A DNA stretch of 64,000 bases, taken from a bacterium (lineage in GTDB: Bacteria > Hydrothermota > Tepidihabitantia > Tepidihabitantales > Tepidihabitantaceae). The DNA lies in the NCBI GenBank assembly GCA_035505375.1, contig DATJQV010000069.1, forward strand, positions 1 to 64,000, given 5' to 3'. The notes under the pieces are model-generated. The model was not told where the DNA came from and did not search any database. It saw nothing but the letters and a program-made list of their open reading frames with translations. Below, piece by piece: positions 32,673 to 48,503 of this stretch; positions within the stretch are counted from its first letter, which is position 1, and each line of letters starts with the position of its first letter. The position numbers and the translations under genes were made by a program.

Positions 32673-33424
32673 ACCGGAAGTCAACTCAGGAAGAGGCCCG
32701 CTGAAACGGGCATTGGCGCCACGGAAGCACCATGGAATCAGGGTCGAAGCTCGAAGTCCGGATGACGATTGCGGCGCGAATGACCAGTGGCTCAGGCTTC
32801 GGGCTTGAATCGGACTTCGGGTCCAGCGCGTGTCGTCGTGGCCGACTGATTCAGGGACAGGCATGTTGTGACGTGGCGGGCGGGTGCATGGCACCCGCCC
32901 GCTCTGTTTGGCTCGGTCCAGCGGCTAACGACCGCCTCGGTTGCCCCGATTCTCGGGGCGCTGCCCGTAAACGGGCGACCTCCGCGGTCAGCCTTAGGGA
33001 AATAGCTACCTGCCGGGACTCATCGGCTATCCCGTGTCGCGGAGTCCATGTTGACCATGAGGAGACCGGATGCGGAAGGTACCAATACCGGCTGCGACCA
33101 TCAAGAGCACGGAAACGAACCTGTGCCAGGACCGAGAGGCAGCAGGACAACGGCGACCCGTGCTCCTGCCCACACCGGCATAATGCTACCTCCGACCACG
33201 GCTGGGTGTCAAGAGTGGCACGAAAGAGCGCGACTGGGAACGGAGAGAACCGTGTGCAGAATTGCACGCCGGCCCACCCGACAGTGACGAACGCAGCTGG
33301 AAACGGGCATCAGTCCGCCGCGCTCGAACAGTGGCCGCCGGGCCGCAGGCTGCCCGCATCCTGAAGGCCGCCCGAACGGCTTGACTTACGGCAGGCGGCA
33401 AATACACTCATTAGTAATGGTTCC
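32673..33424. other. Gene-free stretch with secondary structure
   Basis: No frame here looks coding on either strand. A GCGGGTGC/GCACCCGC hairpin lies at about 32878-32900, and 32930-33040 contains several short GC stems (CCCCGA/TCGGGG, GCCCGT/ACGGGC) that could be part of a folded RNA, but I recognise no class. Confidence 0.4.
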
Positions 33425-33462
33425 GGGCCGGCTGAGCCGTGCATTTACGGTCGCGCCGGCCC
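33425..33462 (+). promoter_or_regulatory. Hairpin in the leader of the papain-family gene
   Basis: GGGCCGGC pairs with GCCGGCCC and an inner CCGT with ACGG. It ends 26 bases before the ATG, ahead of AAGGAG, so it could influence translation or mRNA stability. Confidence 0.5.
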
Positions 33463-33488
33463 GCAGCCATTCCCCATAAGGAGAAACA

Positions 33489-35678
33489 ATGCCACAAAGA
33501 TTAACTGTATTGCTATGCTGCTGGGTTCTGCTCGGAGCCGCGACTGCCCGGGCCGAGTTACACCGCCTCGGGTACATCCACGAGGACCTCGACAAGCTCG
33601 CGCCTGAGCATCAGGTCAAGAGCATACCGGTGCCGCTGGGTGCTGCGTCTCACTATAGCCAGAAGGTGGTGGACCTGACCAGCCAGATGCCGCCGGTCGG
33701 AGACCAGCAGCAGCAGGGCTCCTGCGCCTGCTGGTCCTGCGTTTACTATCACCGGACCCAGATCGAGTACCACGAACGGCACTGGGACCTGACCGACCCG
33801 AATCACCAGTTCAGCCCGGCTTTCGTCTACAACCAGGTCAACGGCGGCGGCGACAACGGCTCGGGTTTCAACAACATCCTGCCGCTCATCTGCGACCAGG
33901 GAGTGTCGAGCCTGGTCGACTGCCCCTACAATGACGGCGACTGCACCAGTTGGCCCTCGGAGTCGGCGTACTCGCACGCACTTCCTTTCCGCACCAAGAC
34001 GTGGGCATGGTTCCACACCTACGACACGACCGGCATCAACATGATAAAGCAACTGCTCGTCAACGGCAGCACCGCGTCCCTCGCCATCGGTGTCTGGGGC
34101 AACTTCGACAACATCGCCTCGTACAACTACATGTACTGCGCGTCCGACCGGGAGGGCACGAACCGGGGCGGACACATGATAACGTTTGTCGGCTACAACG
34201 ATACGCTGCCGACGCACGACGGGACCGGCGCGTTCAGGATGGTCAACTCCTGGGGCACGGGCTGGGGTCAGGCCGGCTACTTCTGGATGTCCTACCAGGC
34301 GGTTATGGACAGCTTCCTCAGCGGACGGGCGGTCGGCTACCTGACCGACACGGTCGGGTACGTACCGAAGCTGGTTGCGCGCGTTCAGATCAACTACCCG
34401 GCCCGCGACAAGGTGGGGCTCAAGTACACCATCGGCACCCGCACGAATCCCCTCTGGACGAAGACGTTCCGCAAGTGGCGCAACGCCAAGACCGACCATC
34501 CGTTCCCGGCCAATAACATGGTATTCGACCTCACCGACGGCTCATCGTACATCAAGAACGGCCAGACCGACTCCATCTACTTCATCGCGTGGGATTCCAC
34601 CGGGTACGGCGACTCCGGCGCCGTTGCCAGCTCCTCGGTTCAGTACCTTGACTGGGGCACAATCTTCAACTCGGGATCTACTCCTCTCACCATCTGGGAT
34701 GACGGGAGAGTGCTGGCCGCCGGCCACCGAATCTGGGAGACCAACAAGGACGTTACTGCCGACTGGATATTCTCGCCGACCGGGATCGTCGAGCCGGAAA
34801 GCTCCTACGTGCCGCGAGTCGAGGTCCGGAACAACGGCCAGAACGCCGTCACGTTCCCGGTCCGGCTCACCATCAGCACCGGCTACGCGGACACGGTGCA
34901 GGTGACGAACCTCGCGCACGGCCAGGCGGATACGATTGCCTTCTTACCCTGGGTGGTTCCTCCGCGCTGCACCGCCGCGGTCCGGTGCTCGACCGCTCTT
35001 ACCGGGGACGAGAACCATCAGAATGACCTGACCACCGCGGTGGCCTGGGCCAGATACCACGACGTGGGCGTGACCCGGATCATCTCGCCCGGCGACACGG
35101 TCGACTCGGGATTCGTCGTCCATCCTCAAATCCAGGTCTGGAACTACGGCACGCAGACCGAGGCCGTCATGGCGACGTTCCGCATTCCCGACGATGGCTA
35201 CTCGCGTGTCTCGCAGGTATCGATTCCCTCTCATCAGGGAATACCAATCACCTTCGCCACCTGGGTTCCCAAACTCGTCGGCAGCCACATGGCCCGGTGC
35301 TCGCTGTCCATGGCCGGCGACGCCGTACCTGCCAACGACACGATGAGCCGCCAGGTTGACGTGCAGGTCGCGGGCATAGCCGAGGGGAAATCGGCGCCGA
35401 ACGGATTCCGGCTCGAACTCCCGCGCCCGAGCGTCCTCAGCCGGAACGTGGCCGTTGCCTTTGCGCTCCCGCGTCCGGCCGACGTCTCGCTGGCCCTCTA
35501 TGACGCGACCGGTGCGCTGGTCCGCCAGCTCCGCCGCGGCAACACTGCCGCCGGACAATACCGGCTGAACTGGGACGGCACCGACGACGAAGGACGCCTG
35601 GTTCCGGCCGGCGTCTACTACTGCCGTCTCAAAGCCGACGACCTCCTCTCCACGCAGAAACTCGTCGTACGGCGGTAA
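33489..35678 (+). CDS. Secreted C1 (papain-family) cysteine protease with sorting tail
   Basis: 729 residues. Signal peptide ends near ATARA. The catalytic site PPVGDQQQQGSCACWSCVYY (oxyanion Gln, Cys in about residue 75-80), the histidine loop NRGGHMITFVGYND and MVNSWGTGWGQAGYFWMSY are complete, so it should be active. After the protease (about 45-290) come CARDB-like repeats (about 420-620) and a FlgD-like module ending PAGVYYCRL...QKLVVRR. Exported and probably surface-bound or released to degrade proteins. AAGGAG lies 5 bases before the ATG. A strong terminator follows. Confidence 0.85.
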   Translation: MPQRLTVLLCCWVLLGAATARAELHRLGYIHEDLDKLAPEHQVKSIPVPLGAASHYSQKVVDLTSQMPPVGDQQQQGSCACWSCVYYHRTQIEYHERHWDLTDPNHQFSPAFVYNQVNGGGDNGSGFNNILPLICDQGVSSLVDCPYNDGDCTSWPSESAYSHALPFRTKTWAWFHTYDTTGINMIKQLLVNGSTASLAIGVWGNFDNIASYNYMYCASDREGTNRGGHMITFVGYNDTLPTHDGTGAFRMVNSWGTGWGQAGYFWMSYQAVMDSFLSGRAVGYLTDTVGYVPKLVARVQINYPARDKVGLKYTIGTRTNPLWTKTFRKWRNAKTDHPFPANNMVFDLTDGSSYIKNGQTDSIYFIAWDSTGYGDSGAVASSSVQYLDWGTIFNSGSTPLTIWDDGRVLAAGHRIWETNKDVTADWIFSPTGIVEPESSYVPRVEVRNNGQNAVTFPVRLTISTGYADTVQVTNLAHGQADTIAFLPWVVPPRCTAAVRCSTALTGDENHQNDLTTAVAWARYHDVGVTRIISPGDTVDSGFVVHPQIQVWNYGTQTEAVMATFRIPDDGYSRVSQVSIPSHQGIPITFATWVPKLVGSHMARCSLSMAGDAVPANDTMSRQVDVQVAGIAEGKSAPNGFRLELPRPSVLSRNVAVAFALPRPADVSLALYDATGALVRQLRRGNTAAGQYRLNWDGTDDEGRLVPAGVYYCRLKADDLLSTQKLVVRR

Positions 35679-35700
35679 CGGGAGACTAACTTACACTCAG

Positions 35701-35729
35701 GGGCGGGCGCTTGGCCCGCCCCTCTTTTT
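35701..35729 (+). terminator. Rho-independent terminator
   Basis: GGGCGGGC, loop, GCCCGCCC followed by CTCTTTTTC, 22 bases after the protease stop. Confidence 0.85.
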
Positions 35730-35749
35730 CAAGCCCGCGCTTCGCCGCG

Positions 35750-35853
35750 GCCAATCTGGAATCTACAATCGAGAATCTGCAATGGGATGGCTGGTCGGTT
35801 CGCGGCGCAGCCGCGGCCAATCTAAAATCTGCAATCCAGAATCTAAAATGGAT
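35750..35853. repeat. Two 7-bp arrays (AATCNNN family) 65 bp apart
   Basis: AATCTGG/AATCTAC/AATCGAG/AATCTGC at 35757-35788 and AATCTAA/AATCTGC/AATCCAG/AATCTAA at 35819-35850, each preceded by CCGCGGCC. This marks the left edge of the toxin-antitoxin island. Confidence 0.8.
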
Positions 35854-35883
35854 TGATGGGCGGGGCGGCAGGCCTCAACAAAA

Positions 35884-35956
35884 GAGAGTCACGATCAGTT
35901 CAGTATCTCGGCATTAACAGATTGCCGGTTAAGTGATACCGAACTACCGTGCTCTC
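35884..35956. repeat. Dispersed inverted-repeat element, copy 2
   Basis: 73 bp. The best-paired copy: the arm GAGAGTCACGATCAGTTCAG matches the reverse complement of the other end with two 1-base bulges and few mismatches. It is followed by the shared tail GTAAGACGC...GGTTCGCGGGCGGG. It lies just after the 3' end of the orphan cas6 gene. Confidence 0.8.
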
Positions 35957-36007
35957 AACATGTAAGACGCAGCCGGCGGGCAAATGGTTCGCGGGCGGGC
36001 AGGGATT

Positions 36008-36715
36008 TCAATCCTCGGGAAACCAGACTCCGGTGCTGTGCCGCCTCGGCGCGGAACGACCGACTGCGCCCCGCTCGGGCACGAACACACCGCAACCCAT
36101 GCGGCGGCCGGGCCCTACCCCAAGCTCCTGCAGCCTCAGCGACTCCTCCGGAGATAGCCCCCGCGCCAGCACTTCCCAGCCGACAACCGCAGTCTCGCCG
36201 ATCTGCCGGAAGCGCCGCACATAAGGGCAGCCTGAGGCGGGGCGTCCGGTGTCGGACGGGCCTGCGTGCTCATTCACCTGCTTCCGGCGCAGGGCCGGAA
36301 CCGCCCTGATGCCCAGGGCGCGGAACTGAGCGGCCAGCCACTCTTCCACCTCATCGCTGTAGCGGCACTGCTCGACGACCACGAAAGCGCTCACGAGACT
36401 CGCGGCCGGTCTCAATTCGGACCGGGTCGGCTGGCCGAGTATCAGCGTCGCGCTGCCGAACACGAGACACTGACCGGCCAGCGGCTCAAGCATCGGCAAA
36501 GCCTCGGCCCCAACGCGGAACGTGAGGCGGGAACCTGGCGTCAGGTCGAGAAAGCCGCGGTGAGGGTTGCCCTGAATCGGGACAATCGCCAATCCCACCT
36601 GGGCCTCCGCTGCCACCCACGGCACGGCGCGCGCCACAGCCCGGTACACGATATAACCATTATCGACGGGAAGCGGCGTCCCGCGGACGGGGAAACTCAG
36701 TTCGACTACCGGCAT
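36008..36715 (-). CDS. cas6: Orphan Cas6 (Cmx6/MYXAN-type) CRISPR RNA endonuclease
   Basis: 235 residues. The layout follows Cas6 of the MYXAN subtype: MPVVELSFPVRGTPLPVDNGY, a GSRLTFRV strand, LEPLAGQCLVFGSATLILGQP, then VVGWEVLARGLSPEESLRLQ and the C-terminal glycine-rich RNA-binding loop ELGVGPGRRMGCGVFVP. Cas6 cuts CRISPR precursor RNA at repeat hairpins. No other cas gene and no CRISPR array lies in this 64 kb. A 20-residue stretch around SDTGRPASGCPYVRR looks inserted. Copies of a 73-76 bp hairpin element flank the gene on both sides (35884-35956 and 36930-37005). It may serve a distant array in trans or process another RNA. Confidence 0.7.
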   Translation of the reverse strand: MPVVELSFPVRGTPLPVDNGYIVYRAVARAVPWVAAEAQVGLAIVPIQGNPHRGFLDLTPGSRLTFRVGAEALPMLEPLAGQCLVFGSATLILGQPTRSELRPAASLVSAFVVVEQCRYSDEVEEWLAAQFRALGIRAVPALRRKQVNEHAGPSDTGRPASGCPYVRRFRQIGETAVVGWEVLARGLSPEESLRLQELGVGPGRRMGCGVFVPERGAVGRSAPRRHSTGVWFPED

Positions 36716-36873
36716 AGCTCATTATGGGCCGGGCGGCCCGAGAGTCAATCCGGCGAGGGGGGTATCCGGTCAGCTCCCCACGCCGGGTGCGTCGAATGGG
36801 CGTCCGCGTGAGGAATAACCTGCGTGACCGGGATTAGCGGGCGTGGATGTCAACCGCGTGACTTGGGCTCTGC

Positions 36874-36904
36874 AGACAAAGGACCAAGGACGAAGGACCA
36901 TGGA
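36874..36904. repeat. 7-bp period array (ACCAAGG family)
   Basis: ACAAAGG, ACCAAGG, ACGAAGG, ACCATGG in the gap 36716-37076, which otherwise holds only the inverted-repeat element. Confidence 0.65.
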
Positions 36905-36929
36905 TTAGTTCCCGGCGGTTCCCAAAAAA

Positions 36930-37005
36930 GAGAGTCACGATCAACCCAGTATCACGACAATGTCTATGACCGAGCCGTTTAACGATACCGAGCTGCCGTG
37001 CTCTC
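36930..37005. repeat. Dispersed inverted-repeat element, copy 3
   Basis: 76 bp, with arms GAGAGTCACG and CGTGCTCTC. It is nearly identical to copy 4 over the whole length including the 3' tail AAACGGTTCGCGGGCGG. It lies between the cas6 start and the end of the HNH gene. Confidence 0.8.
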
Positions 37006-37076
37006 AATTAGTAAGACGCTGAGAGCGGACAAACGGTTCGCGGGCGGCATCGGGGGTCCGCTGTGCGATTTATGAA

Positions 37077-37799
37077 TCAGGACTCCTTCGACAGTATCCA
37101 GCAACCGGACTTCCCAGTCGCTACATGGACGAGCAGCTTCCCGTCCTTCATCCCGAACCGCCTGACCAGGGCTTTGACGCATCCGCGGGGAACCTGCTCA
37201 TACGTCTGTCCGCGCCGGCACACCCTCACCTTCGGCAGTCTCGCGTAGGCGCGTCGAATGGCCCGCACCTGGGCCGGGGTCAACATGCGAAGCTCGTCGG
37301 ACACTTTAGCCCGAGTCCCGTCCCGGAGAGCTCGCCACGCCGTATCGCGTCTCGTCGCCAGCTCCAGGTGCCGCGGGTTGCAGCACGGAGGACCGGCGAG
37401 CTTGTGGATGACCACCATTCCCTTGGGGATTGGCCCGTGCTCGCGTATGTACACCCGCCGGTGGACATAGCGGATGCCATGCCCGAAAAACCCGTAGCCT
37501 CTGACCTTGTGGCCCAACCAGGGCCAGCACTCGTCGTCACCACGCACGTCAACGAGTGCGACCAGCTTGTCGATGCCCCGGCACATTGCGGTGTAGAACG
37601 CGCGCTCCACTTTGATGGTGTAGCCGGGAACACTGGCCATCCTGGTGTTGACCGGCTTGTAGGGCAGTTGGGCCCTCAGTTGCCGGACACGCTCGCGCGA
37701 CACTCCGACTTTCCGGGCAAGTGCGGCTTCGTTGTAGCGGGATGCCTTCTCGCCCAACGCGAGTATCCGGTCGATAGCTAATGGTGCTTGTCTATTCAT
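37077..37799 (-). CDS. HNH endonuclease with N-terminal helix-turn-helix
   Basis: 240 residues. N-terminal resolvase-like HTH with AALARKVGVSRERVRQLRAQ (about 25-44). The HNH domain reads DDECWPWLGHKVRGYGFFG (the W-x-G...GYG opening of phage HNH enzymes), HRRVYIREHGPIPKGMVVIHK and CCNPRHLELATRRDTAWRA (about 88-155). It resembles free-standing homing or phage HNH nucleases rather than restriction enzymes. C-terminal half basic, with VRVCRRGQTYEQVPRGCVKALVRRF. It lies between two inverted-repeat elements (copies 3 and 4), so it may be mobile or part of a mobile cassette. Confidence 0.75.
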   Translation of the reverse strand: MNRQAPLAIDRILALGEKASRYNEAALARKVGVSRERVRQLRAQLPYKPVNTRMASVPGYTIKVERAFYTAMCRGIDKLVALVDVRGDDECWPWLGHKVRGYGFFGHGIRYVHRRVYIREHGPIPKGMVVIHKLAGPPCCNPRHLELATRRDTAWRALRDGTRAKVSDELRMLTPAQVRAIRRAYARLPKVRVCRRGQTYEQVPRGCVKALVRRFGMKDGKLLVHVATGKSGCWILSKES

Positions 37800-37915
37800 G
37801 CCTCGGCAGAAGCCGGTCCTTCCCCGTGTCTCGATCTTCCGTCAATAACGGGAAAGATCCGGTGTTATGCATGGCTGGATTCTAGGACTTGCGGGCAGGC
37901 ATGTCAAACCGAGGG

Positions 37916-37955
37916 ACAATCTGGAATCAGCAATCTACAATCTGAAATTGACCTG
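37916..37955. repeat. 7-bp period array (AATCTGG/AATCAGC family)
   Basis: Four units AATCTGG, AATCAGC, AATCTAC, AATCTGA between the HNH and RelE-type cassettes. Confidence 0.8.
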
Positions 37956-38031
37956 CTCCCTGTCCCTTCATTTTAGTGTACCGCGTGATGTGGGCTGTGC
38001 AAACTATGGACCAGGGACAAAGAAGGCGCCA

Positions 38032-38298
38032 TCAGCGCCTGCGGTAGATTTCGCGGCGGTGGCCGATGACGTGAACCAGCAGTATCTGGTCACCATCAAG
38101 CAGCTCGTAGATGACCCGATAGTCACCGACCCTCAACTTGTACAAACCGGCGAGGTCGCCGCCCAAGGCCTCCGGTCGGATTGTGCCGAGATTCGACGCC
38201 AGCCAGTTGATGCGTTGAACGATCCGACGCGCTTCAGGCCTATCCAGCCGCGCCAAGTCGCGGGCCGCGGCATCCAGGAGGCGAGCCCGGAACGCCAC
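38032..38298 (-). CDS. RelE/ParE-type toxin
   Basis: 88 residues with GTG start at 38298, two bases after the antitoxin stop. Fold markers: MAFRARLLDAAARDLARLD, LGGDLAGLYKLRVGDYRVIYEL and LLVHVIGHRREIYRR, the usual RelE/ParE pattern with basic C-terminus (R, Y, R near the end). Members cleave mRNA at the ribosome or poison gyrase. Second gene after the antitoxin. Confidence 0.85.
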   Translation of the reverse strand: MAFRARLLDAAARDLARLDRPEARRIVQRINWLASNLGTIRPEALGGDLAGLYKLRVGDYRVIYELLDGDQILLVHVIGHRREIYRRR

Positions 38299-38300
38299 GC

Positions 38301-38516
38301 CTAGTGCAGGCCGAGTCTCCGAGCAACGTCGTCGAGCGTCTCGCCTCGCTCGCCGCTCGCCACCTTGCGCCGTTGGCGCAGAAGCCGCGCATGAAGCGCC
38401 CGCTTGACGGTGAGTCCTTCATCTGGGTCACCGAGCAGCTCTATCAGCTTCTCCTCGACCGTCTCGCCAATCATCTCCCGAAGCTGCTCCTTCGTCATTC
38501 GCGCTACGCTACTCAT
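38301..38516 (-). CDS. Antitoxin of the RelE/ParE pair
   Basis: 71 residues; MTKEQLREMIGETVEEKLIELLGDPDEGL is the typical N-terminus of short antitoxins found before ParE/RelE toxins, and the C-terminal TLDDVARRLGLH would wrap the toxin. First gene of the operon, two bases from the toxin. Confidence 0.8.
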   Translation of the reverse strand: MSSVARMTKEQLREMIGETVEEKLIELLGDPDEGLTVKRALHARLLRQRRKVASGERGETLDDVARRLGLH

Positions 38517-38562
38517 CCATCATGATACCGGAGCAGCGCGCGCCGGTCAAGGTGGATGGCAG

Positions 38563-38602
38563 CGTCAATGTGCAATCGCCAATCCGGAATCAACAATGGG
38601 TT
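38563..38602. repeat. 7-bp period array (AATCNNN family)
   Basis: CAATGTG, CAATCGC, CAATCCG, GAATCAA, CAATGGG in register after the RelE cassette. Confidence 0.6.
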
Positions 38603-38651
38603 TCGCGGGCGGGCGGGATTCGGCGGCTATCCTTCAAGAGTCCGACAAAAA

Positions 38652-38727
38652 GACAGTCACGATCAACCCAGTATCACGACAATGTCTATGACCGAGCCGT
38701 TTAACGATACCGGAATGCCGTGCTCTC
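38652..38727. repeat. Dispersed inverted-repeat element, copy 4
   Basis: 76 bp; differs from copy 3 by a few bases (GACAGTCACG instead of GAGAGTCACG). It stands between the RelE and zeta-type cassettes. Confidence 0.8.
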
Positions 38728-38805
38728 AACTAACAAGATGCTGACCGCGGACAAACGGTTCGCGGGCGGGCGTGTCTGACTCGCGACCGTTCTCCGACTC
38801 GGAGT

Positions 38806-39378
38806 TTGACTTCCTCGCAGTGCTTGAATAAGCTCAAACCTGTGGCCATCGGTTCCAGAGCTCCAGGACAACGACGCTGCATCGTCATTGCGGGTCCGAA
38901 CGGTGCGGGCAAGACTACCTTTGCGCGCGAGTTTCTTCCGCGTGACGCCGGCATCGTACACTTTGCCAATGTAGACCTGATCGCTGCCGGCCTGTCGCCA
39001 CTGAGACCGGGCTTGGCCGCACTGGCGGCCGGGCGTCTGTATCTAGCCGAACTTGACCGGCTCGCCCGGGCCGGACTCGACTTCGCCTTCGAGACGACTC
39101 TCAGCGGTCTAGTGCTTGTGTCACGGCTCAGACACTGGAAGTCCGGCGGCTACCGCATCGAAATCATCTTTCTGCAACTGAGTAGCCCGCAGCTCGCAGT
39201 ACGCCGCGTCGCCGCCCGAGTTCGGCAGGGCGGCCATGACGTGCCCCGCGACGACATCGTCAGGCGCTTCGAGCGTGGCTGGCGCAACTTCTGTTCGGTC
39301 TATCGGCCGCTTGCCGATGCCTGGGCAGTCTATGACAACTCCGGGGACGCGCCCCGATTATTGGAGAGGGGACCGTGA
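38806..39378 (+). CDS. Zeta-toxin-like P-loop kinase
   Basis: 190 residues from TTG 38806 (TTG 38824 or GTG 38842 are also possible; no clear ribosome site). P-loop CIVIAGPNGAGKTTFAREFLP, then FANVDLIAAGLSPLRPG, DFAFETTLSGLVLVSRL, VRRVAARVRQGGHDVPRDDIVRRFERG, and WAVYDNSG. This is the COG4185 group, kinases related to zeta toxins that phosphorylate UDP-N-acetylglucosamine. The small gene overlapping its stop is the usual partner of this group. Confidence 0.85.
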   Translation: MTSSQCLNKLKPVAIGSRAPGQRRCIVIAGPNGAGKTTFAREFLPRDAGIVHFANVDLIAAGLSPLRPGLAALAAGRLYLAELDRLARAGLDFAFETTLSGLVLVSRLRHWKSGGYRIEIIFLQLSSPQLAVRRVAARVRQGGHDVPRDDIVRRFERGWRNFCSVYRPLADAWAVYDNSGDAPRLLERGP

Positions 39379-39536
39379 AGAACAAGAGCAAAAGCAGCGC
39401 ACAATCGAAGGAGTTCGCCATACGTGTAGGCCGCGCCCTGCGCCGAGCCGCTCGACAGGCCCGTCGCACCGCGCGCGCCTACGGCACGCCGCTCTACGTC
39501 TGGCGGAACGGCAAGGTAGTCGCCGAGAAACCCTGA
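39375..39536 (+). CDS. Small partner (likely antitoxin) of the zeta-type toxin
   Basis: 53 residues, starting GTG at 39375 with a GTGA overlap of the toxin stop; too short and with the wrong start codon for a normal gene search. The conserved part FAIRVGRALRRAARQARRTA then AYGTPLYVWRNGKVVAEKP is the pattern of small proteins found directly after COG4185 kinases in many bacteria. Its basic helix would contact the toxin or nucleic acid. Toxin-first order differs from most pairs in this island. Confidence 0.75.
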   Translation: MKNKSKSSAQSKEFAIRVGRALRRAARQARRTARAYGTPLYVWRNGKVVAEKP

Positions 39537-39622
39537 CCGGTTCCTCCTCGGTATCAACACAGCGCAGGCTCCGACGCTGACGGAAGGGCTTCGCTCCGGA
39601 AACTCGCGGCGAGGCCACAGCT

Positions 39623-39737
39623 AATCTGCAATCGACAATCTAGAATCTGCAATGCCTTGGGCCGGGATGTCAACCTCCCTCGGGGTCGGCCAATCCAAAA
39701 TCAGCAATCTAGAATCGTGAATTCCCTGGACGGGGCG
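39623..39737. repeat. 115-bp composite repeat, copy A
   Basis: [7-bp array]-ATGCCTTGGGCCGGGATGTC-(CTCGGG...)-[7-bp array]-CGTGAATTCCCTGGACGGGG. The same unit recurs at 41005-41120 and 41876-41990, each between toxin-antitoxin cassettes. Confidence 0.85.
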
Positions 39738-39739
39738 AG

Positions 39740-40237
39740 TTAGGCGGACGGGCGGCGAATCGGTTGACTGTGCCTGGCGGGCCAGGTCTTCAGCAGGTCC
39801 GGGTGCTGCGCGCGTAGCCAGTGAACCACCAGTTCGCGGACGCGAACCGCCAATTCGTGCATTTCCAGCGCCTCGCGCTCCGACACCGCGCCCGCGACCT
39901 CGTAATCGCTCACATGCCGCTTCTTCTTCATCCGCTGCAAGAGGTCCACGTCCCGCCCCGGCGCCTCGATCGTGTGGCGCAACGACTCAACGAGGCGGTA
40001 ATGGTGTCCCTTCTCGCTCGGCGACACGCGGAAGCCGGCAGCGGCCAGGGCTGCCTTTGCTGCCTGAAGAGCCGCATTGTACGCAATCGCCAACTTCCAG
40101 TCGTCGGACAGACCCGGGGTCTGGGCGGCCGCGATGTCGCGTTCGACCACGGACAACAGGTCGGCGATCTCCTCCGGACTGGTCTCGTGCCGCTGCAGCG
40201 AGCCGCTACTTACCCAGCCGTCTAAGGTCGTGCTCAT
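39740..40237 (-). CDS. HEPN-type protein, partner of HTH-MNT
   Basis: 165 residues, almost all helical. WKLAIAYNAALQAAKAALAAAG is the core helix of HEPN proteins (YNAALQAAKAAL resembles the YYAMFxAARALL motif), and YRLVESLRHTI follows. It starts inside the 3' end of the nucleotidyltransferase gene (32-base overlap), so the two are coupled. Likely the toxin or RNase partner; no R-x4-6-H motif is obvious. Confidence 0.7.
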   Translation of the reverse strand: MSTTLDGWVSSGSLQRHETSPEEIADLLSVVERDIAAAQTPGLSDDWKLAIAYNAALQAAKAALAAAGFRVSPSEKGHHYRLVESLRHTIEAPGRDVDLLQRMKKKRHVSDYEVAGAVSEREALEMHELAVRVRELVVHWLRAQHPDLLKTWPARHSQPIRRPSA

Positions 40238-40811
40238 TGCCGAATAGGAACAGCTTCTCGCGCCCCGTCACGCTGCGGACAAAGTGGTTGCCGGCAGCCA
40301 GCTTCCGGCGGAACTCCGCCGATGTGTACACGGTCGGGTTCACCTCCCGGCTAAGCCTGCGCTGTGCCGGAGCCAAAGTCTGCGACAACGCCGCGAACGA
40401 CGCATCGCCGACGACCAGCAGATCGACGTCGCTCGCGCGGCGTTCCTCGCCCCGTGCTACCGAGCCGTACACGAACGCCACGTCGATGTCGGCGGCCAGC
40501 GGCGCGAGCGCCTCGCGCAGGACGTCGGTGACCCCGGCCGTCTTCACAACCAGACTCTTGAGTTCGTTGAATATCGGACTCGCGGAATTGGCCTGAAAGT
40601 AGACCTGCCGACCTTGCTGCCTGCGCGTCACGATGCCCGCCTCGGCCAGTTGCGCGAGCTCGCGGTGCACGCCACTCGGGCTGAGACCGGTCTCGCGGAC
40701 GATCTGGCGCAGATGATATGCCTCGTCGGAGTGGCCGAACAATAGCGCCAGCACCCTCCGCCGAGCCACACCGAAGAGGACCTCACCCGGGCCGGCCGGC
40801 TCTGTTCTCAT
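40206..40811 (-). CDS. HTH-nucleotidyltransferase fusion (antitoxin/regulator)
   Basis: 201 residues from ATG 40811. An ArsR-like winged helix (HLRQIVRETGLSPSGVHRELAQLAEAGIV, about 30-60, quoted by its ends HLRQIVRETGL and AGIV) is fused to an MNT domain with FVYGSVARGEERRASDVDLL, which contains GSxARG and D-x-D. Longer readings from 40937 or 40832 run through the promoter and are rejected. The promoter overlaps a palindrome, consistent with autoregulation. C-terminus ends GNEHDLRRLGK. Confidence 0.75.
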   Translation of the reverse strand: MRTEPAGPGEVLFGVARRRVLALLFGHSDEAYHLRQIVRETGLSPSGVHRELAQLAEAGIVTRRQQGRQVYFQANSASPIFNELKSLVVKTAGVTDVLREALAPLAADIDVAFVYGSVARGEERRASDVDLLVVGDASFAALSQTLAPAQRRLSREVNPTVYTSAEFRRKLAAGNHFVRSVTGREKLFLFGNEHDLRRLGK

Positions 40812-40813
40812 AG

Positions 40814-40849
40814 TGCGAACAATTGTACGCATAAAGTGAACGCCGTCAA
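40814..40849 (-). promoter_or_regulatory. Promoter overlapped by an 18-bp palindromic operator
   Basis: -35 TTGACG (40844-40849), 16-base spacer, -10 TACAAT (40822-40827). TGCGAACAATTGTACGCA (40814-40831) is a nearly perfect palindrome over the -10 and start point, ending 2 bases before the ATG. The predicted transcript is leaderless or nearly so. The HTH of the gene itself is the obvious ligand. Confidence 0.65.
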
Positions 40850-40935
40850 ATCGAGGTGACCGCGGCTCCGGCCTTGAGCCACCAGCCGCTTGTGCTTGAG
40901 CTTGCGCTTGAACTGCGACGGTAGTCGCCGCCGCC

Positions 40936-41120
40936 AATCTACAATCGACAATCCAGAATCTGCAATGCCTTCGGCCGTTGTGTCAATCTGCCTCGGGTTC
41001 GGCCAATCTACAATCGAGAATCTAGAATCCGAAATGCCTTTGGCCGGGATGTCAACCTGCCTCGGGCTCGGCCAATCCAGAATCAGCAATCTAGAATCGT
41101 GAATTCCCTGGACGGGGCGG
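40936..41120. repeat. Composite repeat, copy B (one and a half units)
   Basis: Three 7-bp arrays at 40936, 41005 and about 41070, spaced by about 65-69 bases, separated by GCCTTYGGCCG...TGTCAA and TGCCTCGGG. From 41005 on it matches copies A and C. It lies between the HEPN/MNT and DUF4258 cassettes. Confidence 0.85.
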
Positions 41121-41186
41121 GTCAAAGGGGCGGCAAGTCGGGTCAGCGCCGCTGGACTGCCGGCGCGACGCACCCTCCGCGGTGGT

Positions 41187-41402
41187 CTACGCCGGAACCG
41201 GTATCAGGGTGTAGACTCGGGCGAGGCGTGCGGCGGCCCTGACGTCGCCGGACCTTAGCGCCTCGCGCACGTCATCCAGCTTGTAGGCGTCCTCCAGGGT
41301 GAGGTAGGGTGACCAGCCATGGTCCGTCTCAACCAGTTCGACGTCAACCTCAGCCACGTACTCACCTTCGTGCACCAGCTTGGTTCGATGTCGGGTTCTC
41401 AT
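41187..41402 (-). CDS. Partner of DUF4258 toxin (putative antitoxin)
   Basis: 71 residues, start ATG 41402 in an ATGA overlap with the upstream gene. HRTKLVHEGEYVAEVDVELV followed by GWSPYLTLEDAYKLDDVREAL and LRSGDVRAAARLARVYTLIP is the pattern of small proteins that follow DUF4258 genes. Beta-hairpin N-terminus and helical C-terminus. Confidence 0.7.
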   Translation of the reverse strand: MRTRHRTKLVHEGEYVAEVDVELVETDHGWSPYLTLEDAYKLDDVREALRSGDVRAAARLARVYTLIPVPA

Positions 41403-41725
41403 GTCAACCTCCTCTTCAGGCCAACGTCCCATCGCTTTGGGTCCGGACGATAGGCTGTGACCAGAACGGCGGGACTCTTCTCGCCTTGCGGGATTCCCCA
41501 GAGCACATGCACTGGATTGCCGTCGCGGTCACGCTGCAGCACGAGCACGCATGGCCCCTTGGCAAACGCCGGGTAGTCCTCGACAGGCTCGGCGGCGGGC
41601 ATGCCCGCGACCAAGTCCCGCAGCAGTATCCCGTCCGCCGCCAGCTCATCGTAGCCATGCTCGGACACCCGCACTTCACCCTTGGCAACAAGGGCAGCAA
41701 TCTGCTCCAGAGTATCGGTCACCAC
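41399..41725 (-). CDS. DUF4258 family protein (putative toxin)
   Basis: 108 residues. VRVSEHGYDELAADGILLRDL is the DUF4258 opening with its conserved His, then VEDYPAFAKGPCVLVLQRDR, VHVLWG and AVLVTAYRPDPKRWD, the usual end of BrnT/RelE-like folds of this group. Operon with the next gene (4-base overlap). Toxicity is inferred from family context. Confidence 0.75.
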   Translation of the reverse strand: MVTDTLEQIAALVAKGEVRVSEHGYDELAADGILLRDLVAGMPAAEPVEDYPAFAKGPCVLVLQRDRDGNPVHVLWGIPQGEKSPAVLVTAYRPDPKRWDVGLKRRLT

Positions 41726-41875
41726 TACAGGTTACTCCAAATGCCTGCATCGGGCAAGCTCCTCGTCGGGGCCAGGCGTAACCCCTGGCCCCTCGTTCAG
41801 GGGGTCAAGGGACAACGACGCTTACTGGACGAGCGAGTGGGCTCGCGGGCGAGTCAATTTGCCACGCGGTCGGCC

Positions 41876-41990
41876 AATCTGCAATCGACAATCTAGAATC
41901 TGCAATGCCTTGGGCCGGGATGTCAACCTGCCTCGGGCTCGACCAATCCAAAATCAGCAATCCAGAATCGTGAATTCCAAGACGGGGTGT
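41876..41990. repeat. 115-bp composite repeat, copy C
   Basis: Same order as copy A: 7-bp array, ATGCCTTGGGCCGGGATGTC, CTCGGGCTCG, 7-bp array, CGTGAATTCC. It lies in the gap 41726-42097 between the DUF4258 and retropepsin-like cassettes. Confidence 0.85.
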
Positions 41991-42097
41991 GTCAGATGGG
42001 CATCCGCGCGTCGGGAATCCGCTACCGCGTCACCGTGATCTCTACGCCGTTGACATCGCTCAGAAACACGCGAAGTGTCCCGCGCGGTTCTCCGGGT

Positions 42098-42550
42098 TCA
42101 GTGAATCGGCAGGGTCAGGCGCCCGGTGCCGCGCGAGCGGCTGAGGCTGACATCAAAGCGGTCGAGAAAGCCGGTCTGTCCGAGAAGGCCTTTACTCCCG
42201 GCCGGAAGCCCGGTGAACCCTGCGTACATCTGATAGGAAAAGAAAGGGCCGCGCGCACCCCAGACCGCCATCGTCACCATGTGATAGTGCAACTTCGACA
42301 TCTTTCCGCTCGCACTGTGGAACCCCGCGGTCGGGCATCGGCGCCAGTCGATGCCGAGCTCCTCGGCCAGACTGAAGTGGAAGACGCAGTCATCCGAGCC
42401 GGAATCGAGCAGCCCGAGCAAAGTCGCGGTAGTCCGGTCGCCCCAGCTCAAGCGGAACGGCACCATCGGTCGCTGAACCCTGCGGCCGGCTGGAAACGCC
42501 CGGCAGGGCTCAGCCTCGAACTCGTAGAATTGAAGTGGGAGTGACTTCAC
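42098..42550 (-). CDS. Retropepsin-like aspartyl protease
   Basis: 150 residues. One aspartyl-protease half: LLGLLDSGSDDCVFHFSLAE holds the catalytic D-S-G-S, and KGLLGQTGFLDRFDVSL is the second conserved loop (hydrophobic-hydrophobic-G). Such single-domain bacterial proteases act as dimers. AAGTCACTCCC lies before the ATG (weak site). It follows the DUF5678 gene by 7 bases; the pair recurs in bacteria and archaea as a small two-gene module of unknown purpose, possibly toxin-antitoxin-like. Confidence 0.75.
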   Translation of the reverse strand: MKSLPLQFYEFEAEPCRAFPAGRRVQRPMVPFRLSWGDRTTATLLGLLDSGSDDCVFHFSLAEELGIDWRRCPTAGFHSASGKMSKLHYHMVTMAVWGARGPFFSYQMYAGFTGLPAGSKGLLGQTGFLDRFDVSLSRSRGTGRLTLPIH

Positions 42551-42557
42551 GCCCCGG

Positions 42558-42761
42558 CTACATCACGAGGGCGCACGATTCCAATGGAATCTGGGTAAAG
42601 ACCGGATCCTTCACGCCGGCCTTGTCTGCACGCTGGGCCGCAGCCTTGAGCGTCCGACCCTCAGCGACCCGCCGGTTGCTGCGCGGGTCAAGGGCAACCC
42701 AATAGCCGGGCTTGCCGCTCAGCCTGATGGCCCTCGTGCGTTGACTCAGAGACCTACTCAC
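42558..42761 (-). CDS. DUF5678-like small protein
   Basis: 67 residues from GTG 42761. PGYWVALDPRSNRRVAEGRT, then LKAAAQRADKAGVKDPVFTQIP is the DUF5678 pattern (YWVAIDP...V-x-G-x-x-L-x-x-A...DPVFTKVP). Upstream partner of the aspartyl protease. Role unknown; possible substrate or antitoxin of the protease. Confidence 0.7.
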   Translation of the reverse strand: MSRSLSQRTRAIRLSGKPGYWVALDPRSNRRVAEGRTLKAAAQRADKAGVKDPVFTQIPLESCALVM

Positions 42762-42960
42762 GATTCAATTCTAGCCGTTCAGAGTCGTGCGTCAAGCAGA
42801 CTCCTCGCGAGGACATCTGCAAACCGCTAAACCTGACCTCGCGGTTGTTCTTGATGAAGTCCGCCGGCATCTCGACCAGCCTGCATCCCAGTGATTCCGC
42901 CAGAGCCCCGCGCTCAGCCGGACCGCAGCGTGACCGAATAGTACAGATGTTGGGACAGAC
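42754..42960 (-). pseudogene. Open frame without start, possible gene end
   Basis: Between TAA at 42961 and TAG at 42754 the frame reads RCGPAERGALAESLGCRLVE, then MPADFIKNNREVRFSG, which looks coding, and its stop overlaps the DUF5678 start. There is no ATG, GTG or TTG at the front, only an internal ATG. It may be the C-terminal remnant of a larger gene. The remainder of 42762-43080 shows nothing else. Confidence 0.35.
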
Positions 42961-43080
42961 TTAGGAGATGACCGGGGGATTCGGAGAAGGGCTCTTCATC
43001 TCACGGCCGGATTCTAGGACTCTCGGGCGTGGCGTGTCAAATTGTGAGGGAGAAATTGTGTGAAGGCCCCGATTCGACCT

Positions 43081-43581
43081 TTACGGTGTACGAGCGAAGA
43101 CTATCGCCCCCCTCCTCCACGTGCTTCCGAACGAGCCTCCGCAGTAGCGTCGCGTCGTGCGATCCTTCAGCTCCACATCAAACTCTTCGGACTGGTGGCG
43201 CTCTGTCACGACCGCTTTGGCTTTGAACCAGTACTCGTAGCGGAATCCGCGATCTTGGTGTTTGTCGTACCAATTGGGGCCAGCTATCGTCGGCCATGGA
43301 CTCGCCTGACGATTACGGTCCACCGAGAAGTCGACAATCTCTGCGCGGTATTCGATCCAACCCACACCCCAGGAAGAGTGCTCTGCCCGTCCATTGCACG
43401 TGTATCGCTTGGGCACGTAGATGTAGAGGTTGAATGGACGCGGCATCTCTTGGAGCCTCCTGACAACCCAGCCTTGCACGCTTGCCGAGTACTGGATCGC
43501 CGTGCTGCCATGCTCACGGCAGTACTGTGCGTGGTCTTCACCGAGCTGCTTTGGACCTATCAAGATAACTGACATGGCCAT
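43081..43581 (-). CDS. Unknown protein, third gene of the JAMM operon
   Basis: 166 residues; ATG 43581 preceded by GGAGGAGACG. Reads MAMSVILIGPKQLGEDHAQY, PFNLYIYVPKRYTCNGRAEH, GVGWIEYRAEIVDFSVDRNR, RYEYWFKAKAVVTE. The alternating hydrophobic strands with Y-V-P-K-R and W-I-E-Y-R-A-E-I recall the PUA/EVE-ASCH class of modified-base or RNA readers, but I cannot confirm it. 19 bases after the JAMM gene on the same strand. Gene ends within 60 bases of non-coding DNA. Confidence 0.6.
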   Translation of the reverse strand: MAMSVILIGPKQLGEDHAQYCREHGSTAIQYSASVQGWVVRRLQEMPRPFNLYIYVPKRYTCNGRAEHSSWGVGWIEYRAEIVDFSVDRNRQASPWPTIAGPNWYDKHQDRGFRYEYWFKAKAVVTERHQSEEFDVELKDRTTRRYCGGSFGSTWRRGAIVFARTP

Positions 43582-43600
43582 CGTCTCCTCCTATTCACGC

Positions 43601-44122
43601 TCAATCCGTTGCGTTCACCGGTAGCATCCTGATTCTCGGTTCGGAGATTGAGTAGGCGCGGATGTTGAACGAACAGCCGAGCCGGGGTTCGTAGCCGATG
43701 AGCGCCCGTTTCGACGTCCGGTTGGGCGTGCGGACAGCGGGACGCACCGCGACAATCACGGCAATGGGCGCAAAGATGTCGTCCGCGAATGCCAGCCGGT
43801 CGTCAGGCGACACGCCGTGCGCTAACTCGTCGACGTCGGAGATGTGCGAGTGGAACGTGCCGAGTACTTGGAGATGTAACTTAAGCCCAAGCTCGTACCT
43901 CCGATCCGCCATCTTCACGACTTTGACGTCGGCGTGGTGACTTGCCCGCCTCCCGCCCCGGTACAACGCTGCCCGCTCCACCACGATGTGACGTTCCTTT
44001 CTCACGCGGCCGAAAAGAAACCCGACGCGCTCCTGTCTGCGCCTTCTCATCACGCCGCACAGTGTCCACCAACACATATCTTGGAGGACGCTCGGCCTGA
44101 ACTCAACCGAGTCGGGATTCAT
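43601..44122 (-). CDS. JAMM/MPN-type metalloprotease
   Basis: 173 residues. JAMM motif is complete: a glutamate in IVVERAALY, H-S-H in VLGTFHSHISDVDELA and S-x-x-D in GVSPDDRLAFA. GFLFGRVRKERHIVVERA is the usual start of the domain. JAMM enzymes remove ubiquitin-like proteins or cut cysteine-synthesis carrier proteins; in bacteria they occur in pathways such as Bil/CBASS-like conjugation and sulfur carriers. Here no ubiquitin-like, E1 or E2 gene is recognisable. Middle gene of a three-gene operon (gaps of 12 and 19 bases). Confidence 0.75.
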   Translation of the reverse strand: MNPDSVEFRPSVLQDMCWWTLCGVMRRRRQERVGFLFGRVRKERHIVVERAALYRGGRRASHHADVKVVKMADRRYELGLKLHLQVLGTFHSHISDVDELAHGVSPDDRLAFADDIFAPIAVIVAVRPAVRTPNRTSKRALIGYEPRLGCSFNIRAYSISEPRIRMLPVNATD

Positions 44123-44134
44123 CTTCCAGCAATA

Positions 44135-44692
44135 CTAATGCACGCCAGGACGTCGCGTCAACAACATGAAGTCATGCTCAGTGATCTCGTGGGTGTGCCC
44201 AAAGAAACGCAGCCCCGGGTTGAGGCGGGCCTCTGGGTGCTGACCGAAGAAGTCCAGCGCGTCGTAGTACGGCTGTACCCGAACCGGCTCTTTCAGGTAT
44301 ACGTCCACATCTCTAAGGCGACAGACACGCGGATACGTATCAGGATGCGGGTTGTTTGGGTGCCTAGCATCTGCGGCGCTGGGGCTCGTCACTACACATC
44401 CATGAGCGACTACTCCTCCATCATCATCAGCATGCCTAGCTCGATATACACAGATTCTGTCTTCTCGCCTAGGAACATGTGGAATGTGTTCTCGAAAGGC
44501 CATGATTGGATCCGACACGAGGAGCATCCGAGCGATGATCTTGTCTGATGATACGTACACACCTTCTACTAGCTCGTCATTGACAGGCACAAACAAGCAG
44601 CATGTGACGGCTATCTCTCGGCGATTGCCCCTGATTGTCTTTCTCCGCAACTGATCTGCAAGTCTCTCCAATTCCTCCATCTGAAAGGTCAT
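44135..44692 (-). CDS. Unknown protein, first gene of the JAMM operon
   Basis: 185 residues from ATG 44692, with GGAGAGACAC before it. Coiled N-terminus MEELERLADQLRRKTIRG, then REIAVTCCLFVPVNDELVEG, DRICVYRARHADDDGG and the C-terminal FFGHTHEITEHDFMLL. The H-T-H stretch and the hydrophobic strand pattern recall a degenerate JAMM domain, so the operon may encode an active and an inactive MPN protein, but this is only a resemblance. No family recognised. Confidence 0.55.
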   Translation of the reverse strand: MTFQMEELERLADQLRRKTIRGNRREIAVTCCLFVPVNDELVEGVYVSSDKIIARMLLVSDPIMAFREHIPHVPRREDRICVYRARHADDDGGVVAHGCVVTSPSAADARHPNNPHPDTYPRVCRLRDVDVYLKEPVRVQPYYDALDFFGQHPEARLNPGLRFFGHTHEITEHDFMLLTRRPGVH

Positions 44693-45371
44693 GTGTCTCT
44701 CCCTATTCTGCTGAGCGCTCTAGGTTTGGTTTAGGTATCTGCCCGCGACTCCTGTCGACTGAGGATCACGTAGTGACCAGTCCGGACGCGGGACCATATA
44801 GAGGAACAGCCGCGCCGCCAGACCAGCGGTTCGGAGGGCTCTTCTCTGGCGCGCAATGCCTAACCCACGCAGCCACAGGCAGTTCGAGCGCTAGACGGTA
44901 TGCCGAAGTGGCCGCTTGCAGTTTTCCCGAACACGAAGCATTATCCCGCTTCGGCTCGGTTAGGTCTGCATGATCGCCGGCCGGGGGGTTTTCGGGACAT
45001 CTTGTTCCACGTTCGACAATGTCGGACTTGGCTTGTCCTCGGGCTGGAATCCAAGCCGGGAAGCTGGGCGTGTCAAACGGGCGGGCAGTAGCGCGGCAGG
45101 AATCTTCCATGCGGAGCTTGTACAAGAACTCAGACTCGGCGGCGCGACACTACCATCGAAGGCGTCATCCGCGTCAGACGACCGCTACAGGTTGTAGCAA
45201 GGCAGGCACAGCTCGGGGTTTTGGGACAAGCTCAGTGTCCCTCTTTTTCCCGAGGGAGGTAGGCTGCGACGGGTGGTGGTCCCGAGTCGCTGAGCCGAGG
45301 TTCTCCGACACACCCCTAGGGGTCCGCTTACTGCTGCGCCGTGTCTGGCTTCTTCTCGCCAACCAGCCGAG
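44693..45371. other. Gene-free stretch
   Basis: No convincing coding frame on either strand. A CCCTC...GAGGG hairpin lies near 45243-45261. Otherwise I see nothing in it. Confidence 0.5.
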
Positions 45372-45986
45372 CTAGAACCGGATGCCCAAGACCGCCTCAA
45401 TTGCCGATGGGTACAGCGACACCGCCTGTGACCGATACGCATCATTGAAGGTATACGACATGCGTACCTCGGGGACAACCGTGACATCGTGCAGATGGAC
45501 GATGGCACCGATACCCCAGTTACCGCCGACATTCACCGGTTGGAAGTGGCTTTCATCCAGCAGCACCGTGTAGACCCCGGACGATTGCGCATAGCCGAGC
45601 AGGATATCCATCCTTGGACCGGCAGTGATGAAGAGGTTCGCTAGCTTCAAGTTGGCAATGAACCGCACCATAACCGGCACGGTCAAGTAGTCAGCCCACA
45701 TGTCATCGCGGTAGCGGCCCAAGAAATCGCCGTTCTCGTTCACCACATCCGTTTCTACGTACTGGCCCCGTTGCAGGTAGTGAAGTTCAACTCGCAGGTA
45801 TGAGGACGCGAGGTCCACCATCACGCCGGCCTGTGGACCCAGACGTCTGTGGTAATCATCTGCGAGTGGAGTGTTCAGAGACGAGAGCCCTGCACCGACG
45901 ACGATGCCTGCGCCTTCGTACAACTTGGCCCGAGTCGTAGAGACGGCCGCTAACATGAGCATTACGGCGACTACATTCCGACCCAT
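45372..45986 (-). CDS. Outer-membrane beta-barrel protein (PorT-like)
   Basis: 204 residues. Signal peptide ends ...VSTTRA; then repeated amphipathic strands such as GAGIVVGAGLSSLN, YLRVELHYLQRGQYVET, LTVPVMVRFIAN, LFITAGPRMDILLGY, ending with a strand and terminal Phe (EAVLGIRF), the signal for outer-membrane insertion. This is the small eight-strand barrel group PF13568, common in the FCB superphylum. AAGGAGGTAATTGAC lies before the ATG. Single gene; role unknown. Confidence 0.8.
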   Translation of the reverse strand: MGRNVVAVMLMLAAVSTTRAKLYEGAGIVVGAGLSSLNTPLADDYHRRLGPQAGVMVDLASSYLRVELHYLQRGQYVETDVVNENGDFLGRYRDDMWADYLTVPVMVRFIANLKLANLFITAGPRMDILLGYAQSSGVYTVLLDESHFQPVNVGGNWGIGAIVHLHDVTVVPEVRMSYTFNDAYRSQAVSLYPSAIEAVLGIRF

Positions 45987-46152
45987 GTCAATTACCTCCT
46001 TGAATGGCGCGCGATGGGATGCGTAGCACGGGGGAGTTTCGGAGACATCTTACCACGCTATCTCCGTCAGAGCCGAGGGTCCGGGTTCCATCGGACATGG
46101 TAGCGGCTTAGCCGGGCGTGTCAAATGGGCATCCGCGTTTGAGACATCCCGA

Positions 46153-46893
46153 CTATGTGTTCTTCTCGACTTCCGAAAGGCTCAGCGTACTTGAGTGTAA
46201 CATGGCCAGGTGTTCGTAGTCCAGGTAACGCACGCGGGTCCGTAGCGGCTCATACACTGTGCGGCCGATGACGTCTTCGAACTGGCGCCGTCGGGCAGAG
46301 TGCCCCACGGCAATCATGTCTACGCGGAAGTCAACCAACTCCGAGAACTTCTCGAATGCTCCCCGGAAGTCGGTCGTATGCTCGATTTCGATGACGCTGG
46401 CGGGAAACCCTCGGGAGTTGAACCACACGGCGTCGATCATACGGACGGAACGTAGGACGCGGTCATAGGTGAACTCAGGGATGCTCGTCGTGTCGGCGAT
46501 TTCCTTCAGCGGACGTCCGGCGCAGAGACGGTTTCCATCCTGCGCGGGGACGTAAGTCTGATGGCCTTTGAGATGTCCAAGCTCCAGAGCAAGTCCTTGA
46601 TAGTAGGAATGGGAAAGCTCTGCGCCTTGCGTGGTTCTGTCATCGGGATTCTGCATCATCGCACGGATGTCCTGCGGCAGGCGGTCGCGGCACTCACACA
46701 GCGCCCAGAGGCCGGGTTTGACCTTGAAGAACAACTCGGACTGCTGCACGATGCGCCGCATGGACGCAAATGGGGTCTTGGTCTTCCACTTAACGTCCTC
46801 GACCTCCAGCGCGTGTTCGTAAAGGTAGCGCAACGTTGCGAACCCGCCATTACGCCTCATTGCCTCGGCAACTGCGTCAATCTGCGTCTTCAT
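46153..46893 (-). CDS. HARE-HTH protein with restriction-endonuclease-like C-terminus
   Basis: 246 residues, GGAGGACCG before the ATG. N-terminal HARE-HTH: AVAEAMRRNGGFATLRYLYE and WKTKTPFASMRRIVQQSELF, FFKVKPGLWAL (1-66). The C-terminal part has RMIDAVWFNSRGFPASVIEI then EHTTDF, where D...E-x-E fits a PD-(D/E)xK nuclease core, and ELVDFRVDMIAVG as the following strand. HARE-HTH is fused to nucleases in restriction systems for modified DNA. No methyltransferase is adjacent, so it may be a solitary defence nuclease. Confidence 0.7.
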   Translation of the reverse strand: MKTQIDAVAEAMRRNGGFATLRYLYEHALEVEDVKWKTKTPFASMRRIVQQSELFFKVKPGLWALCECRDRLPQDIRAMMQNPDDRTTQGAELSHSYYQGLALELGHLKGHQTYVPAQDGNRLCAGRPLKEIADTTSIPEFTYDRVLRSVRMIDAVWFNSRGFPASVIEIEHTTDFRGAFEKFSELVDFRVDMIAVGHSARRRQFEDVIGRTVYEPLRTRVRYLDYEHLAMLHSSTLSLSEVEKNT

Positions 46894-46995
46894 CGGTCCT
46901 CCGTTCTGGCCGGCCTTCGGACTTGTGTCTCGGCCACGGTCAAATCTAGGCCGCGAACGGTAACAGTCAAGCTAGGCGGGAAGGGAGGTCCGCAG

Positions 46996-47226
46996 TTATG
47001 CCGGCCCGTCGTCGAGCATCGGGATTTCGTCCGGCAGGCCCTGCGGCAGTTCGACAAGACCGAGGCAGTCCACGCAGGAGTACCCGCGTTCAAGCCAGTT
47101 GGCGCGACCCGAAGTCTTCCACGAGTAGATGCTGGTGCGGTTCTTGCGCGCCGCGCCGCGCGCCAGCCGCCACTCCTCCAGGTGATAGAAGTCGGCTGTG
47201 ACGATTGGTTCCAAAGCTACTCGCAT
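46996..47226 (-). CDS. Unknown small protein, third of three
   Basis: 76 residues from ATG 47226 (GTG 47229 also possible), TGATG overlap with the upstream gene. LEPIVTADFYHLEEWRLARG, NRTSIYSWKTSGRANWLERG and YSCVDCLGLVELPQGLPDEI. The C-x-x-C could bind a metal. No family recognised. Confidence 0.5.
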   Translation of the reverse strand: MRVALEPIVTADFYHLEEWRLARGAARKNRTSIYSWKTSGRANWLERGYSCVDCLGLVELPQGLPDEIPMLDDGPA

Positions 47227-47510
47227 CACGTCTGCGCCTTCTGACGTTGGTATGCAGCATCCAGGCTGAACTCGGCCCTACTGGCCGCGAAGTCACGGGC
47301 AAGCTCGTAGCAGTAGACCTCGTCGAACGACGTATCGCGCAGCCACGGGTTTTCTTCGGCCAAACGTTCGAACGCGGCCGAGGCCTGTGGGCCGGAGGCG
47401 ATTCCGAGCATCTGGACGTTCTCAACGTCCGGCATGGCAGATTCGGAGCCTGGCTGATACGTGTACCCCTCTAATGTCAGGAAGATGAAAGCTCGTTCGG
47501 GCTTGCTCAC
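47226..47510 (-). CDS. Unknown small protein, second of three
   Basis: 94 residues. GTG 47510 chosen because AAGGAGGACTTCT precedes it; an earlier TTG lacks a site. ERAFIFLTLEGYTYQPGSES, ENVQMLGIASGPQASAAFER and FDEVYCYELARDFAASRAEF. No family recognised. Coupled to the gene that follows. Confidence 0.5.
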   Translation of the reverse strand: MSKPERAFIFLTLEGYTYQPGSESAMPDVENVQMLGIASGPQASAAFERLAEENPWLRDTSFDEVYCYELARDFAASRAEFSLDAAYQRQKAQT

Positions 47511-48475: not shown

Positions 48476-48503
48476 GCCGTCCAGGGGACAGAGAAGACCG
48501 GAC

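Follow-up and report, generated by a model that had tools for sequence, protein, structure and literature searches.

The closest described relatives of the locus reported here are chromosomal toxin-antitoxin (TA) and defence islands, with type II TA systems as mobile two-gene modules (PMC2701414) and with HEPN-MNT TA systems (PMC3710099, PMC4621449). Like these, it gathers several mutually unrelated TA pairs at one chromosomal site that varies, each pair being an autonomous unit present elsewhere in relatives; in contrast to them, its spacers are full of heptad arrays and are accompanied by a local composite repeat and by copies of an element termed R2. Also comparable are integron or superintegron cassette arrays, with which the locus shares the numerous small TA modules and, between them, repeats of the same orientation, as well as heptamer direct repeats, i.e. 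intergenic TAACTGA units known from Beggiatoaceae, Cyanobacteria and Bacteroidetes (PMC4679880). With a probability of roughly 0.8, we regard the locus as a chromosomal TA/defence island of independently transcribed modules which are gained and lost as units, its arrays being a 7-bp-periodic spacer repeat and its composite a locally duplicated spacer block.

The window (the whole stretch of 64,000 nucleotides analysed) represents contig C69 of a 3.6-Mb, 90-contig genome (G000) that is 98% complete. Here, cas6, an HNH gene and five two-gene modules are packed into 35.7-42.8 kb, and gene calls and family searches agree with the first-pass annotation, which had counted at least five two-gene modules plus cas6 and HNH at 36-42.8 kb. 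The island and its modules are:

35679 to 52315, no strand: island, a variable interval bordered by the papain/FlgD gene and by the gene block at 52.3-58.3 kb, from comparison with contig G003:C104
36008 to 36715, minus strand: solitary cas6 of the I-MYXAN type (PF09559, 1.7e-39; TIGR02807 over cut-off)
37077 to 37799, minus strand: HNH_3 endonuclease module (PF13392, 7e-12; non-syntenic copies in G000:C34, G004 and G005)
38032 to 38516, minus strand: ParE/RelE toxin (38032-38298) and antitoxin partner (38301-38516) (PF05016, 1.3e-11; copy in G002:C195)
38806 to 39536, plus strand: zeta toxin (38806-39378) and small basic partner (39375-39536) (PF06414, 5e-9)
39740 to 40820, minus strand: HEPN toxin (39740-40237) and HTH-MNT (40206-40820) (Pfam HEPN/NTP_transf_2; PADLOC PDC-M05, 1.4e-75)
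41187 to 41725, minus strand: DUF4258 (41399-41725) and partner (41187-41432) (PF14076, 1.9e-10)
42098 to 42761, minus strand: aspartyl-protease-like gene (42098-42550) and small partner (42558-42761) (PF13650, 2.5e-4, below the Pfam cut-off)

As toxins and antitoxins were named from family matches only, these are candidate TA pairs. The last of them had been annotated as an aspartyl protease/DUF5678 pair: the gene pair stands and the protease match falls below the Pfam cut-off, while the DUF5678 name is unconfirmed, since the small partner gave no DUF5678 match at E<0.1. To the right of the modules, window positions 43081-44122 hold a JAB-like gene (weak match) with a partner. The solitary cas6 has R2 copies on both sides; concerning a tie to CRISPR, the window gave no Rfam match, nor was a typical CRISPR array seen near cas6.

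The island is missing in the congener G003, where homologues of window positions 33374-35651 and 52316-57393 stand only 1.6 kb apart (G003:C104) and a PIN/RHH pair (family assigned by sequence reading) fills the site. In G001, the papain gene has different neighbours. The unit that varies therefore spans 35.7-52.3 kb and is over twice as long as the interval considered in the first-pass annotation. Its modules also occur elsewhere: copies of HEPN/MNT were found in G003:C10, G002:C130 and G007, and copies of the aspartyl-protease-like module, at 84-87% identity, in G003:C7, G004:C375 and G004:C392. Together with the HNH and ParE modules, these two sit at unrelated sites in G002-G005, in G007 and on contig C34 of the same genome, and MAGs carrying the labels Chloroflexi, Acidobacteria, Planctomycetota and others contain HEPN/MNT relatives too. 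The comparison of relatives suggested at first pass thus yielded an island missing in one congener and modules displaced elsewhere, i.e. multiple TA or defence modules at a single site which differ between relatives. Module turnover among congeners, at the island site as well as at other places, is thus real.

Alignments of displaced modules stop at the stop codon or, at most, some tens of bases away from it, while their other end lies just past a promoter-like site. For HNH, the homology unit spans 37073-37910/37915 and the promoter-like site 37907-37879; for the aspartyl-protease-like module, the respective coordinates are 42085-42799 and 42795-42768. HEPN/MNT homology reaches 40886, with a promoter-like site at 40849-40822, and cas6 has a sigma70-like promoter at 36748-36721. 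Altogether, promoter-like sites are found immediately 5' of five minus-strand modules, with 8 hits in the region compared to 1.3 expected. The breakpoints inside the composite repeat that had been predicted at first pass did not appear: homology instead ends outside the repeats, near stop codon and promoter, although at 73-87% identity such ends may mark selection on functional DNA and not true breakpoints, which limits the breakpoint test. Moreover, module copies in G003:C10, G003:C7, G004:C392 and G007 are without arrays in the stretches of 6-20 kb that were read. These observations bear on an integron-like system, in which modules would be inserted, deleted or exchanged at the composite or the AATC arrays by a recombinase that is remote or has escaped notice. 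Such a system would fit modules that are divided by repeats of the same orientation and that move between species, but the breakpoints lie away from the repeats, moved modules lack arrays, and most modules own a promoter-like site, unlike typical integron cassettes.

The arrays were searched as AATCNNNx3+AAT with up to 1 mismatch, which gave 24 matches in the window, 22 of which fall within 35.75-41.98 kb, whereas shuffles gave 0. Hence, the earlier description of arrays in almost every gap holds, the count being 6 of 8 gaps, with none in the cas6-HNH gap and none after 42.76 kb. Blocks located by this pattern search are:

35753 to 35849, plus strand: AATCNNN arrays, two blocks
37918 to 37948, plus strand: AATCNNN array
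38574 to 38597, plus strand: AATCNNN array

In the whole genome, 212 matches contrast with 1 for a reversed-pattern control; congeners hold 34-309 each, and matches are sporadic in the rest of the class. Among 0.68 Mb of loci from the same genome, picked for holding arrays, 77 array clusters were counted, nearly all of them intergenic. Outside the island, genes beside arrays match other genes in size (23% versus 25% under 150 aa), on which ground a tie of the arrays to small, TA-sized genes was rejected, and arrays also stand between core (housekeeping) genes; this occurrence beside genes of all sizes and between core genes speaks against the integron-like system. The intergenic 7-bp periodicity involves many words: in loci chosen for arrays, 143 tracts were detected at lag 7 compared to 19 at lag 6 and 10 at lag 8, and mononucleotide shuffles gave 0 at lag 7. 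In two core-gene gaps followed through six congeners, AATCNNN, CATTCNN, other heptads or none are present, depending on the species.

AATCNNN is one word of a genus-wide 7-bp-periodic intergenic repeat, its tandem 7-bp units lying between genes and being dispersed across the genome. With the heptamer direct repeats mentioned above (PMC4679880), it shares tandem 7-bp units, intergenic location, more than 100 sets per genome and no link to gene function; it differs in that the degenerate AATCNNN is one of many words and that a given gap may carry different words in different species. Within the same core-gene gap (L156:7237-7320 and 8759-8789 versus L172-L176), the word differs between congeners while the period is kept. 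Additionally, a dispersed repeat of about 100 nt at G000:C28:49520-49622 (L156 about 9520-9622) has at least 7 further copies in the genome, and congeners contain some as well. The right part of the island, where MqsA-like, HicB-like/DUF433 and MNT genes stand up to 52.3 kb with zero AATC arrays, supports the spacer view, whereas array density in the island, the highest among loci read (11 arrays within 6.3 kb, compared to 5 in the second-densest locus), is unexplained by plain spacer filling and counts against it. Adjacent arrays agree in orientation 28 to 5, a point in favour of the integron-like system.

Repeats accompany TA genes in sister islands as well, which the integron-like system would likewise account for. 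The sister island of G005:C212 (L072), at 2680-9518, has at least 10 copies of the palindrome GCGGTTCATTTAAATGAACCGC or close variants, eight AATC arrays in one orientation, and AbiE, ParE and HNH genes. The one of G003:C54 (L106) contains AbiE and PemK-like pairs, a 109-nt CCTCTA composite in three copies and two R2 copies. Furthermore, at G000:C63 (L084) 2440-4211 an FRG-like gene and a DUF2442/DUF4160-like pair (names by sequence reading) lie by four AATC arrays; the latter pair also adjoins the ParE module in G002:C195.

The composite had been described as a 115-bp repeat at 39623, 41005 and 41876, and was measured here as about 120 nt, slightly shifted and joined by a half copy:

39620 to 39740, plus strand: composite copy 1 (repeat search; 39620-39751 used as reference)
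40933 to 41001, plus strand: half composite, 85% identity to the reference
41002 to 41122, plus strand: composite copy 2, 92% identity to the reference
41873 to 41995, plus strand: composite copy 3, 91% identity to the reference

Identities of the copies at 41002 and 41873 were taken over about 121-124 nt, and no further long copy was found in the 3.6-Mb genome. Flanks are more alike for close than for distant arrays, within the island and outside too (p=0.006), which points to local duplication of spacer blocks, with the composite as the strongest case; the composite may thus have arisen by such a duplication. A use as attC-like hairpin was rejected, as the copies fold no better than shuffles on either strand, which also weighs against the integron-like system. 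Alternatively, the composites might play a passive part, their homology allowing RecA-dependent events that delete, duplicate or convert the HEPN/MNT and DUF4258 modules. These direct repeats of about 120 nt at 91-92% identity, with exact shared runs of 54 and 39 nt, do flank both modules, and the first half of copy 39620 is like that of 41873, its second half like that of 41002, a pattern that also counts against the preferred reading; the mosaic test is weak (p=0.046), however, no deletion or duplication allele was seen, and the process would account for module loss but not gain. We consider it rather unlikely.

The recombinases of the genome speak against the integron-like system as well. 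A PF00589 search of the 3.6-Mb genome returned two tyrosine recombinases only, on C63 and C12, neither of them near the island. The C12 enzyme is a 314-aa frame assigned at the level of the PF00589 family. The one on C63 is XerD by the NCBIfam curated cut-off, scores 140 bits for the integron integrase model TIGR02249 against a cut-off of 265, and is encoded on a contig of housekeeping genes (purM-, nadB- and tadA-like; names by sequence reading). As a XerD amid housekeeping genes, it was rejected as a module mover despite its place beside arrays. Hence, the first-pass statement that no integrase is visible is borne out, both tyrosine recombinases lying outside the window, and its suggested search near other repeat copies led to XerD and not to an integron integrase; no IntI-type integrase was found in the 98% complete genome or beside an array. 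The locus differs from integrons in all three features compared, namely integrase, attC-like hairpins and cassette boundaries at the repeats. The proposal that recombination between repeats inserts, deletes or swaps modules is left unsupported by homology ends, array-free copies and genome-wide arrays, and the integron-like system is largely refuted, its remaining probability being minimal.

The first-pass annotation had not contained R2, an element of 123 nt with the following copies:

25955 to 26052, minus strand: resident, partial R2 copy, orthologous across the genus
35880 to 35998, minus strand: structured R2 copy 10 nt behind the stop codon of cas6
36925 to 37047, minus strand: structured R2 copy 30 nt behind the stop codon of HNH
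38647 to 38769, minus strand: structured R2 copy in the gap that separates zeta from the ParE antitoxin

Loci beyond the window are L131, L135 and L188-L198. A covariance model of R2 has matches in 17 of 18 genomes of the WOR-3 family and none in the other 129 genomes of the phylum searched, with one or two copies per genome outside the island genus and 2-6 inside. In several genera, R2 stands downstream of a gene for YjbQ or AsnA; many of these genera also have it upstream of a flavoprotein gene (all names by sequence reading). A role as leader of the flavoprotein gene was rejected, since the downstream gene lies on the opposite strand in G009, G013 and G017. A search in viruses gave a single pattern match of 14.8 bits only, within a predicted gene, and was likewise dismissed.

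The aligned matches from the family reveal a conserved hairpin. In its paired columns, 44 cells are changed on both sides compared to 15±2.7 in shuffles and 11 in the highest slid control, i.e. the compensatory base-pair changes of a conserved structured RNA are present; RNAalifold alone gave the closing stem only, whereas the inner stem was identified by eye before the counting, so that its support leans partly on that choice. Non-standard pairs are mostly A-C (49 to 18, p=2e-4), corresponding to G-U on the opposite strand, and in the island genus a T-run follows the closing stem on that same strand. Wobble asymmetry and T-run together point to the minus strand as the sense of any RNA here, and R2 is likely a minus-strand RNA with a terminator-like end. 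Rfam 15 has no gathering match in the window, and across ten loci R2 itself is without match at E<=5 or E<=2, except for one chance-level sRNA match which overlaps it little or not at all. At even odds, R2 represents a family of small structured RNAs that is undescribed and belongs to the WOR-3 family, normally single-copy between a YjbQ/AsnA gene and, often, a conserved flavoprotein gene. A subfamily of it would have been copied into TA islands; there, immediately after cas6 and HNH, it would act between modules as a regulatory RNA or as 3'-UTR punctuation. That R2, and not the composite, is a mobile site (MITE or attC-like hairpin) spreading modules would agree with its flanking cas6 and adjoining HNH and zeta, and with subfamily copies at other places in G003:C54 (two) and G001. 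Nevertheless, R2 is mostly single-copy at a conserved position in other genera, HNH and other module copies elsewhere have no adjacent R2, and compensatory changes and wobble asymmetry favour an RNA; R/L core boxes were not seen by eye, for which reason an attC was rejected. Such a mobile role is thus very improbable.

In the preferred reading as a TA/defence island, the site between the gene for a papain-like secreted protease and a conserved gene block would be variable, and each minus-strand module, a promoter with one or two genes, would move as a unit. Modules probably come and go by ordinary horizontal transfer together with recombination of the DNA around them, be it illegitimate or homologous. 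In this reading, AATCNNN arrays would be the local form of a fast-changing 7-bp-periodic spacer repeat filling intergenic DNA across the WOR-3 genus, and the composite of about 120 nt one such spacer block, duplicated locally. With this, the tempting but unsupported model of an integron without integrase is removed, and repeats between TA modules can be just the normal spacer DNA of a genome. The heptad spacers raise the question why 7 bp is the preferred slippage or binding unit, and R2 is a candidate new RNA family; both are parts of this locus worth following.
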